From Phyllobacterium phragmitis (GTDB taxonomy: Bacteria > Pseudomonadota > Alphaproteobacteria > Rhizobiales > Rhizobiaceae): a stretch of DNA of 64,000 nucleotides. The stretch is from positions 1 through 64,000 of the forward strand of contig NZ_PVBR01000014.1 of NCBI RefSeq assembly GCF_002980495.1, given 5' to 3'. This document shows, in pieces, positions 8,398 to 54,559 of the stretch. Position numbers and translations under genes: made by a program. Under the pieces are notes generated by a model. The model searched no databases, was not told the DNA's origin, and worked only from the letters and a program-made list of their open reading frames with translations. Each line of letters opens with the position of its first letter. Position 1 is the stretch's first letter.

Positions 8398-8415
8398 GAA
8401 CCGCATGTGCGGTTC
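8398..8415. repeat. Hairpin GAACCGCA-TG-TGCGGTTC
   Basis: Eight-base arms with a two-base loop in the trmFO/exported-protein divergent region. It overlaps the first ATG (8405) of the plus-strand frame. It could be an operator or an mRNA hairpin; the function is unknown. Confidence 0.4.
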
Positions 8416-9040
8416 TGCCATTTTGCTATTCGTCAGGGGTTATAGAACCAGGAGGCGAACACTGTCTGAACGGGCACGGATCGGGCTGTTTGCCGCGGCG
8501 GTGATTTTTGCCGGCGGCGCGGACATTGCGGAAGCACAAGGGGCGAGCTTCAGGGTGTGTCATGGCTATGATTGCTACCGTTCGACGCGCGTAACGCTGA
8601 CCGCAGGTGATTTGAAAAGAATTGCGGCGGCGATGGCGCAGGGCATGAAATCCGCGGAAGCCGAACGCTCCGCCGTGCGCCGTGCGGTAGCAATCTTCGA
8701 AGAACGGAGCACTGCCGTCATCGGCGTTCGCGATAAAGCAAAAATGCAATTCGGCAGGGCGCGTATCAAGGGCCAGATGGATTGTATCGACGAATCCACC
8801 AACACCGACCATTTCCTGAAATTCCTGCAGAGCACGGGATGGCTCAGACATCACCGGATGGCGCGCAAGACATCGCGCGGCTTCTTCCTCGACGGGCGGT
8901 ATCCACATTGGACGGCGGTTCTGAAGGATGAACACGGCGTGCTCTGGGCAGTCGATTCCTGGTTCGAGCCCGGCGGCGGACTACCTGACGTGATGAAGCT
9001 GTCGGAATGGAAGCAAAGAGGTGTCGGCGGCCAGCGTTGA
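8405..9040 (+). CDS. Exported protein of unknown function
   Basis: No family recognised. The frame encodes up to 211 residues. A signal peptide (ARIGLFAAAVIFAGGADIAEAQG) starts about 20 residues in. The mature part has two close Cys (VCHGYDC) and a third (MDCIDE), a Trp-rich end (HWTAVLKDE, WAVDSWFEPGG), and is otherwise globular. The first ATG at 8405 lies in a hairpin and puts a charged stretch before the signal peptide. A perfect AGGAGG at 8450-8455 lies six bases before an in-frame CTG at 8462, which would give a textbook signal peptide, so CTG 8462 may be the real start. The downstream hairpin array is on the other strand. Confidence 0.65.
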   Translation: MCGSAILLFVRGYRTRRRTLSERARIGLFAAAVIFAGGADIAEAQGASFRVCHGYDCYRSTRVTLTAGDLKRIAAAMAQGMKSAEAERSAVRRAVAIFEERSTAVIGVRDKAKMQFGRARIKGQMDCIDESTNTDHFLKFLQSTGWLRHHRMARKTSRGFFLDGRYPHWTAVLKDEHGVLWAVDSWFEPGGGLPDVMKLSEWKQRGVGGQR

Positions 9041-9060
9041 GCGAAAAGGGCCTTACAAAA

Positions 9061-9308
9061 ACAACACCCGCCGCGGGAGGAGGTGCGGCGGGTGTCGTTT
9101 GGTAAAGGCCGACTGGGAGGAGGAGTGCCGGCCTTCGATCGCTTGGGCCTGGGAGGAGGATAGGCCCTCGCGATATTCTTTATTTTTCGGAGTTAACGGC
9201 ACTCGCTGTGGGAGGAGGTACAGCGAGTGCCATTAGGTAAGGCCGGCTGGGAGGAGGAGTGCCGGCCTTCGATCGCTCAAGCTCGGGAGGAGGATAAGCT
9301 TTCGCGAT
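9061..9308 (-). ncRNA. Array of six CCUCCUCCC-loop hairpins (cuckoo/CcsR-type sRNAs)
   Basis: Read on the minus strand, six stem-loops each expose CCTCCTCCC in the loop. Arms are 9064-9074/9085-9095 (11 bp), 9105-9111/9129-9135, 9145-9150/9162-9167 with outer ATCGC/GCGAT at 9138-9142/9170-9174, 9198-9209/9220-9231 (12 bp), 9239-9247/9261-9269 (9 bp), and 9279-9283/9297-9301 with outer arms 9272-9276/9304-9308. The last hairpin in the minus direction is followed by TGTTTTTGT, a terminator. The DUF1127 gene ends 35 nt upstream. Alphaproteobacterial sRNAs with this loop motif downstream of DUF1127 genes are known (CcsR in Rhodobacter, the cuckoo family). The loop can pair with Shine-Dalgarno sequences. 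Confidence 0.82.
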
Positions 9309-9342
9309 ATTCGTTAAGGCGCTCGACGCGTCGTTTGGTTCC

Positions 9343-9489
9343 TTAGCGGGCGCCGGACTGGCGAGCCACGTAAGGGATGTCGGCGCGGGAAATGCCGAGG
9401 TCGCTCAGTTCGCGGTTCGAAAGGCGGTTCAGTTCGCCGACGGTGTCACGGTAACGGCGCCAATTGCTGTAAGAGCGGATCAGGTTCAT
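9343..9489 (-). CDS. DUF1127 small protein
   Basis: A 48-residue, arginine-rich protein. The DUF1127 core (RELSDLGISRADI) is followed by PYVAR. The frame is open further upstream, but ATG 9489 (MNLIRSYSNW) has AGAAGG eight bases before it and matches family size. DUF1127 proteins are small RNA-binding or phosphate/stress-linked proteins. The Rhodobacter relative CcaF1 is encoded upstream of CCUCCUCCC-loop sRNAs and affects their maturation. The same arrangement here, with the array 35 nt downstream, suggests a shared transcript. Confidence 0.85.
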   Translation of the reverse strand: MNLIRSYSNWRRYRDTVGELNRLSNRELSDLGISRADIPYVARQSGAR

Positions 9490-9601
9490 GTCAGTCAACC
9501 TTCTGTTCGATATCTCGATGATCGCTGTCTCGATCGTTGAACTGGATATAGTCCAGGATTCCCCGGGGTTGCAGACCCAAGTTTGCATAGCTGACCTGCA
9601 A

Positions 9602-9644
9602 TTGCTGCAATGCATCATCAATCGATTTTATTTGCTGCGATGCA
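9602..9644 (-). promoter_or_regulatory. Direct repeat upstream of DUF1127, 30-bp period
   Basis: On the minus strand TGCATCGCAGCAA (9644-9632) and TGCATTGCAGCAA (9614-9602) lie exactly 30 bp apart, about three helical turns. They are 113 to 155 bp upstream of the DUF1127 start. This looks like a paired activator site, for instance for a LysR-type regulator; the protein is unknown. Confidence 0.4.
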
Positions 9645-9748
9645 CAAATTCGGAATGACTTTGGGCCCGCCGAATCTTGGCGTTTTTGATCTGCCGATCT
9701 TGCGGTAGTGTGTGCCGATTTTGCAGCGGCACGAATCAGGAGTTCAGC

Positions 9749-10861
9749 GTGGCATTTCCCATCCCTGTCCGGGCCTATATAGCCCGCTGGCAAAAGAAGG
9801 GCCTTATCGATGACGATACGGCCGAAGCGCTTCTCTCCGATCTCAAAAGCCAGGGCGGCGGATTTGGCCTCGGCAATACGCTGGCCGTTCTCGGGGCCGT
9901 TCTTCTTGGCGTTGCCATCATCACGCTCATCGCCGCCAATTGGGAGGCGATGCCGCGCCTGCTGCGGGTTGCGCTGATCTTCGCGGTGATCTGGGGCGGT
10001 TACCTCGGTGGCGCCTGGCGTCAAAGCCGCGGCGATACGGTGTTTTCGCCGGCGCTCTATCTCGTTGCGGCCATCGCTTTCGGTGCCGGGATCGCCCTGA
10101 TCGGGCAGATGTATCATCTCTCGGGCGATGCGGCGTTTGCCGCGCTGGTCTGGACGGGCGGCGTCATGGTCGCTGCCTTCCTGCTCAGATCGGGGACGCT
10201 GGCGATAGCCAGCATGGCGATTGCGGGCTTTTACCTTTTTTCCTTTTTGAGCGACGGTTTTTATCCCGACAGGCAGTATCTGTTGATCGCGCCGTTGCTG
10301 GCGGCGCTTGGGGCGGGGCTTGCCTGGTACACGAAAAGCCGTGCCGCGGCGGATCTGGTGGCGTTGTTCCTGATCGCCTTCTTCCTGGTCAGCTATTTCG
10401 ATTTCGACTCACTCATGGTGCTCTGGCTGACCGCCGCAGTTGGGCTTGCGCTTTTTCTTCTCGACGGCTTTCGTCCTGATCTGTCGGGCAGGATCGGCAG
10501 CTTCGGTCCGGCGCTCGCAGCCTATGGCCTTGCGGCAGCCCTGCTGGCGCTGTCGGTGATGCAGTTCGAAGACATCATGCGGGACGCTGCCGGACGGGTT
10601 ATTTTCGGCGTCGTCATTCTCGGGCTTTCAATTGGCGCGCTGGTGCTTTCGGGACGCAGAAACCCATCCGTGCGGTGGATCGCCTATGTCGCGTTCTCGC
10701 TCGAGGTGCTCTATCTGGCCTTCGTGACCGTCGGTACGCTGATCGGCACATCGGGTTTTTTCCTCACCGCAGGTATTCTCCTGCTTCTGCTGGCAGTTTT
10801 CGTGGCGCGCATGGAGCGGCGGCTTCATGAAAAGAATCCGAAGGCGGTGGCAAGCATATGA
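9749..10861 (+). CDS. DUF2157 multi-pass membrane protein
   Basis: The product (370 residues) starts with a soluble DUF2157 segment (YIARWQKKGLIDDDTAEALLSDL) at about 10-40, followed by some ten or more hydrophobic helices to the end. GTG 9749 is chosen because CAGGAG lies seven bases upstream and the protein then begins AFPIPVRAYI; the frame itself is open from 9677. Function is unknown. The stop overlaps the ATG of the GDYXXLXY gene as ATGA, so the two are translationally coupled and probably act as a pair, as seen in other genomes. Confidence 0.85.
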   Translation: MAFPIPVRAYIARWQKKGLIDDDTAEALLSDLKSQGGGFGLGNTLAVLGAVLLGVAIITLIAANWEAMPRLLRVALIFAVIWGGYLGGAWRQSRGDTVFSPALYLVAAIAFGAGIALIGQMYHLSGDAAFAALVWTGGVMVAAFLLRSGTLAIASMAIAGFYLFSFLSDGFYPDRQYLLIAPLLAALGAGLAWYTKSRAAADLVALFLIAFFLVSYFDFDSLMVLWLTAAVGLALFLLDGFRPDLSGRIGSFGPALAAYGLAAALLALSVMQFEDIMRDAAGRVIFGVVILGLSIGALVLSGRRNPSVRWIAYVAFSLEVLYLAFVTVGTLIGTSGFFLTAGILLLLLAVFVARMERRLHEKNPKAVASI

Positions 10862-54359: not shown

Positions 54360-54483
54360 GTTTTTCCGTGGGACAGGTTTCGCGGAGTGTATTGGCTATC
54401 ACAGAGAAATCTCCGTGACCATTCCTCCTCCCATACGAATTTTTATTTTACAGATCGATCGATTATGCTAATTCGGCGTCAGT

Positions 54484-54559
<76 letters not shown>

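Follow-up and report, generated by a model that had tools for sequence, protein, structure and literature searches.

What kind of RNA is formed by the six hairpins that follow a small DUF1127 gene in Phyllobacterium phragmitis, and how is it expressed? We analyzed a stretch of 64,000 nucleotides of this genome (the window), in which a sequence-only reading had described six consecutive stem-loops with a common loop nonamer at 9061–9308. We find six exact minus-strand copies of the nonamer there (DNA form, CCTCCTCCC), and the predicted minus-strand RNA folds into six stem-loops between 9307 and 9061, each with CCUCCUCCC exposed in its loop. Outside the array, the 64 kb contain one further CCTCCTCCC, at 54424 (plus strand). 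First-order Markov shuffling gives an expectation of 0.45 nonamers per window on both strands, and more than one nonamer within any 250 bases was seen in 0 of 200 shuffles. The fold energy of the minus-strand RNA is −133.5 kcal/mol, compared with −80.0 ± 4.7 for shuffled sequences (z = −11.4; 0 of 200 shuffles as stable). In the predicted ensemble, the mean unpaired probability of the six nonamers is 0.94–1.00 for the array alone and 0.92–1.00 when the sequence to 9545, DUF1127 included, is added. The flanking features were also as originally described: the DUF1127 gene has its stop codon at 9345–9343, 35 nt from the first array helix, and the last stem is followed by TGTTTTTGT, a U-run that fits termination in the minus direction.

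The proposed covariance-model search returned two adjacent full-length matches to Rfam family RF02344 (ar14), both on the minus strand and both above the gathering cut-off of 58.8 bits (Table 1). Thus, the six hairpins of the array represent a three-hairpin unit present twice. Kinship with the CcsR and cuckoo RNAs had been suggested from the sequence; this is correct, and the relationship is closer than suggested, with both halves scoring as ar14 members. The stems had also been described as differing, which is true of the hairpins inside one unit but not of the middle stems of the two units, which are almost identical because the unit is doubled. Both units have the three hairpins with CCUCCUCCC unpaired that are typical of ar14 (minimum free energy fold; probabilities 0.92–1.00), while the terminal U-run of the family is seen at unit 2 and is absent at unit 1. 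A stable, Hfq-independent RNA of about 120 nt is a further trait of the family. At E ≤ 0.001, ar14 has seven matches in the same genome, of which six exceed the cut-off; one of the seven, on contig 1, is a lone unit that follows a second DUF1127 gene. Across a same-family sample that includes this genome, ar14 is found at E ≤ 0.001 in 146 of 151 genomes and above the cut-off in 137. The array adds a member, as an ordinary double copy, to the anti-Shine-Dalgarno (anti-SD) sRNA system already described in rhizobia and Rhodobacter. We consider it very likely that it consists of tandem alpha-r14/cuckoo units in the 3′-UTR of a DUF1127 gene (CIN1-type), made as an LsrB/VtlR-driven precursor that is cut into anti-SD sRNAs.

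Table 1. Predicted features of the DUF1127 gene and its hairpin array, in window coordinates.
Feature	Position	Strand	Basis or remark
VtlR/LsrB box match, GCAT-N3-TG-N3-T	9585..9597	.	GCATAGCTGACCT on +; −96 to −108 from DUF1127 start (9489)
CTATAT, candidate −10 element	9546..9551	-	TATAT similarly spaced from box in loci of genus
DUF1127 small basic protein, 48 aa	9343..9489	-	Pfam PF06568, E 8.9e-16 (domain within 9346-9489)
Alpha-r14 (cuckoo) sRNA unit 1	9194..9312	-	RF02344, 95.6 bits; three hairpins, 3′ end without U-run
Unit 1 helices	9307-9273, 9267-9241, 9233-9196	-	Fold coordinates
Anti-SD loop 1, CCUCCUCCC	9285..9293	-	Exact nonamer and unpaired probability
Anti-SD loop 2, CCUCCUCCC	9249..9257	-	Exact nonamer and unpaired probability
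Anti-SD loop 3, CCUCCUCCC	9210..9218	-	Exact nonamer and unpaired probability
Alpha-r14 (cuckoo) sRNA unit 2	9059..9178	-	RF02344, 109.4 bits; three hairpins, last a terminator-like stem with U-run
Unit 2 helices	9173-9139, 9133-9107, 9098-9061	-	Fold coordinates
Anti-SD loop 4, CCUCCUCCC	9151..9159	-	Exact nonamer and unpaired probability
Anti-SD loop 5, CCUCCUCCC	9115..9123	-	Exact nonamer and unpaired probability
Anti-SD loop 6, CCUCCUCCC	9075..9083	-	Exact nonamer and unpaired probability

The stems covary among relatives. We aligned 21 of 36 listed matches from six genomes of the window's genus, mostly the stronger ones (L003 and weaker matches were excluded). Across the 30 consensus pairs, 98.4% of 629 cells are paired, and pairing falls to 34.7–52.7% when the partners are slid against each other as a control. 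Double changes occur at 13 of the 30 pairs (7.2 in shuffles) and in 61 cells (18.7 in shuffles). One covariation measure runs the opposite way, with 25 further pair types, below the 27.8 found in shuffles. These figures should not be read as probabilities: the alignment itself supplied the structure, and its sequences share ancestry. Missing stem conservation in related genomes had been named beforehand as grounds for refutation; with covarying stems, the original claim survives this check. The alignment indicates that the secondary structure of the array is under selection.

We find that the DUF1127 genes that precede such arrays are associated with matches to a published regulatory box. The consensus reported for the VtlR box is GCAT-N3-TG-N3-T (PMC7486931). 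This pattern matches five places in the window, so the weight of the match ahead of DUF1127 rests on its position and conservation. Within 200 nt before DUF1127-array genes, the box is present in 31 of 44 cases among loci L001–L096 (22 of 1393 control stretches) and in 72 of 122 among L097–L174 (114 of 4492 control stretches), two sets that share genomes and whose DUF1127 genes are not independent. All boxes of both sets start 94–116 nt upstream of DUF1127. The cases without a box include second DUF1127 genes of pairs (L117–L120). With TATAT at a comparable spacing from the box in loci of the genus, CTATAT is probably the −10 element of the operon promoter. VtlR and LsrB are described as two names for one Rhizobiales regulator (PMC11975290), which is reported to activate NfeR1 (PMC10746234), and DUF1127 genes of other Rhizobiales (PMC12595884), among them atu1667, termed a small hypothetical protein in another account (PMC7486931).

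Are the two units part of the DUF1127 transcript, or are they separate genes? The folded units are only 22 nt apart (9196 to 9173), and unit 1 is followed by GTTAACTCC, whereas five consecutive T follow the last stem. From this spacing and the position of the U-run after unit 2 only, we infer a single precursor that carries DUF1127 and both units, with the main terminator at its end. Among 49 tandem arrays composed purely of three-loop units, the last T-run exceeds every internal one in 35, ties with the longest of them in 11, and falls short in 3. It is unlikely that each unit is instead an sRNA gene in its own right, with a promoter and a terminator of its own and independent of DUF1127, as in Sinorhizobium meliloti NfeR1, which is described as driven by its own sigma-70/LsrB promoter (PMC10746234). 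A number of Mesorhizobium arrays, with inter-unit loop distances of about 75–113 nt and internal T-runs, would leave room for such genes. In the window, 22 nt and a unit 1 without a U-run speak against them, as does a VtlR-box match placed ahead of DUF1127. A generic sigma-70 scan of 8950–9750, including the region upstream of DUF1127, returned zero promoters and does not decide the matter. The accompanying terminator scan returned two terminator-like sites, both away from the array hairpins and on the plus strand; its rule admits loops of 3–8 only, which makes it blind to these hairpins. Many Mesorhizobium arrays have T-runs of 3–4 after internal units too, and in these arrays the internal units may end separately.

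Wobble pairs provide evidence on which strand carries the RNA. A G-U pair in a minus-strand RNA would read as A-C on the opposite strand. Read in the minus-strand sense, the interior stems of loci L001–L096 contain 138 G-U and 24 A-C wobbles (231 of 305 distinct loops, those whose stems form five or more Watson-Crick pairs). Counted locus by locus, G-U predominates in 49, A-C in 4, and the two are balanced in 22. This stricter count is the one quoted here; a looser first count gave 177 G-U and 74 A-C. Named loci L097–L174, whose genomes are partly shared with the first set, give 151 G-U and 26 A-C in 198 of 253 loops. This asymmetry, together with the U-run, favors a minus-strand RNA, as the sequence-only reading had it. 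The same reading had also raised the idea that the plus strand offers perfect ribosome-binding decoys. A plus-strand role, with GGGAGGAGG loops as ribosome decoys or the stems as a terminator for the convergent gene at 8405–9040, is very improbable. The hairpins are about equally stable on the other strand, and transcripts could enter the array from the convergent open reading frame (ORF), which ends at 9040. Fold energy is neutral: it favors the sense strand in 33 of 57 usable units (58 rows minus L091) and does not separate the strands. Against a plus-strand role stand the wobble asymmetry, a U-run on the minus side, Rfam scores on the minus strand only, and the placement of DUF1127, which in 73 of 74 chains from named relatives starts no more than 700 nt upstream of the CCTCCTCCC loops and shares their strand.

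Strong 3′ hairpins generally protect mRNAs, and the array does lie behind the DUF1127 gene; a 3′-end structure that mainly stabilizes the DUF1127 mRNA and does not pair with other mRNAs is nevertheless very improbable, since stabilization would not need a conserved single-stranded nonamer in variable stems and loop-seed mutations abolish silencing by NfeR1 (PMC10746234).

We prefer the reading of the array as the source of anti-SD sRNAs, and here it can be compared with known systems. The cuckoo family was reportedly named by Reinkensmeier and Giegerich in 2015, and is said to have two to four adjacent hairpins. Alpha-r14/NfeR1 (Smr14C2, SmelC397) shares the three hairpins in a unit of about 120 nt, the CCUCCUCCC loops, the variable stems, and an LsrB-type box in the promoter region; the units here are in tandem behind DUF1127, whereas descriptions of NfeR1 give it a promoter of its own. 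SmelA075 and SmelA099, with three and four hairpins, likewise repeat an anti-SD hairpin module in variable number and in several copies per genome, but the account in PMC3927594 gives two to four hairpins per RNA, compared with six here, arranged as two three-hairpin units. The same paper describes the family as a whole, including its varying number of hairpins and its anti-SD role. In Rhodobacter sphaeroides, ccaF1-CcsR1-4 has the same order of a DUF1127 gene, tandem anti-SD sRNAs, and an end terminator (PMC10253847, PMC8625941), but with four units and an RpoHI/RpoHII promoter there, and two units and a VtlR/LsrB box here. Each unit here has three stem-loops, compared with two in the CcsR homolog RS0680a (PMC3927594), and so differs in this respect from the CcsR1-4 type. 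The link to DUF1127 is that of the “CIN1 locus” (PMC10253847, PMC8625941), and here, too, the array immediately follows a short DUF1127 gene of the same strand. The reported VtlR/LsrB-activated DUF1127 genes and AbcR sRNAs (PMC7486931, PMC12595884) have in common with this locus the box consensus upstream of a small DUF1127 gene; the anti-SD array present here behind DUF1127 is unmentioned for VtlR/LsrB targets in the available text of these papers. In the available portions of the literature, we found no description of at least six anti-SD loops as tandem alpha-r14 units; we do not claim novelty.

The mechanism is likely to resemble that of NfeR1 and CcsR1-4, by analogy: processing of a 3′-UTR would yield anti-SD sRNAs, which in turn would occlude ribosome-binding sites. 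NfeR1 is reported to silence ntrB via its anti-SD seeds, a variant mutated in all three being inactive (PMC10746234), and silencing by its redundant loops is also covered in a review (PMC7143759). Co-transcription and RNase E processing are described for ccaF1-CcsR1-4 (PMC10253847). In our model, LsrB/VtlR would turn on a single transcript of DUF1127 and both units. RNase E, perhaps aided by the DUF1127 protein, would then cleave this precursor into one- or two-unit sRNAs, and each loop would pair with GGGAGGA-type Shine-Dalgarno sequences, blocking translation of many mRNAs. Doubling the unit would raise the yield of sRNA or of loops per transcript. General RNA binding by DUF1127 proteins is disputed (PMC12501420), and for another S. 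meliloti DUF1127 gene, uORF-dependent attenuation is reported (PMC12218461).

That the loop motif can pair with Shine-Dalgarno regions had been stated at the outset, and complementary start sites are frequent in the genome. GGGAGGA-N3-11-ATG has 194 matches, compared with 17 for the backward control, while a control Shine-Dalgarno sequence, AAAGGAG, has 101 compared with 49; a few matches are doubled in these counts where two ATGs follow. The loops thus fit a favored Shine-Dalgarno form. A transport-specific target set, as reported for NfeR1, received no specific support: among the matches listed, transport functions were assigned to 8 of 20 ORFs after GGGAGGA and 5 of 16 after AAAGGAG (Fisher P = 0.73), and we therefore make no such claim. 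These ORFs are the distinct ones of at least 100 aa from the first 30 of the 194 and of the 101 matches, and these listed matches lie on the first contigs throughout. Transport comprised solute-binding proteins and components of ABC, TRAP, or TTT systems, with a LysE exporter excluded. We also considered ntrB as a shared target, assigning the gene from its place before ntrC, with an uncertain start codon. By eye, we saw no stretch at its likely start in which six or more consecutive bases were complementary to the loop, so this established target of NfeR1 may not be shared by the genome studied here.

Array size varies among relatives. Using the neighboring DUF2157 gene, we collected 78 loci from named relatives, a sample rich in Mesorhizobium, and counted loop chains allowing one C/T change at either nonamer end. 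Longest chains of six loops were counted in 30 loci, of three in 26, and of nine in 12; chains of two, four, five, or seven loops make up 6 together, and 4 loci have no chain of at least two. Six loops, which had been taken for a high dose of the motif, are thus common. A tight-tandem pattern (exact nonamers, inter-unit loop distance 47–77 nt), which misses wider arrays, occurs across the wider family in 27 of 394 genomes and 10 of 109 genera. A broader pattern, found in 116 of 394 genomes, does not distinguish four-hairpin RNAs from tandem units and so does not serve to count tandem arrays. The plasmid search gave seven records, none covering 80% of the query. One locus (L061; G177:C1, ~878.3–879.3 kb) has seven alpha-r14 units with 21 CCTCCTCCC loops in a row behind DUF1127, and its near-identical listed stretches suggest recent expansion or homogenization. 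In another (L065, G156), 13 or more loops follow one another.

Within the window's genus, the locus has two units in the genome studied here (G000) and in G206, G260, and G305; G050 and G142 have one unit each. In G206, one of the six loops lacks the exact nonamer. Locus correspondence was established for G050, G206, G260, and G305 by loops that recur in named loci beside the DUF2157 gene, and for G142 by the DUF1127 protein and its upstream region only. First units share 84% identity between species, compared with 76% to the second unit of their own genome, in an alignment with two rows slightly misaligned in one loop. The difference is larger for the third hairpin (86% versus 69%) and absent for the second (77% in both comparisons), and second units are 87% identical to the single units. 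That first units are closer between species than to their own second unit points to one duplication before the four species split, in which unit 2 would have retained the old terminator. Loss of a unit in G050 and G142 is a possible alternative.

What remains most interesting about these loci is that they hold anywhere from one to seven units. It is a long shot that this number (3 to 21 loops) acts as an evolvable dose of an LsrB/VtlR-driven translation brake, with long arrays partly uncut and multivalent, able to hold several mRNAs together. In that case, phenotypes attributed to DUF1127 proteins under VtlR/LsrB control would in part stem from the RNA behind them. The natural series of 3, 6, 9, and up to 21 loops at DUF1127 loci offers a test of why one RNA carries several identical seeds. 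Our results place a previously unannotated stretch in a known type of posttranscriptional regulation, and suggest that DUF1127 genes reported as VtlR/LsrB targets deserve a check for regulatory RNA in their 3′-UTRs.

Several minor observations concern the surroundings of these arrays. In L117–L120 and other Mesorhizobium loci, two successive DUF1127 genes precede the array, with a box before one only. Two loci of the genus (L078 and L087, in G206 and G142) have an extra stretch containing palindrome-like segments between DUF1127 and the array, where the window has its 35 nt. The convergent ORF on the plus strand encodes 211 aa without a Pfam match, and stops 18 nt away from where unit 2 ends. 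The stray CCTCCTCCC lies ~50 nt ahead of a tRNA gene (54484–54556). Elsewhere in the same genome, two alpha-r14 units face each other ~170 nt apart (L003 and L005; G000:C3:134961–135368), and such facing pairs also occur in G050, G142, and G305 of the genus.
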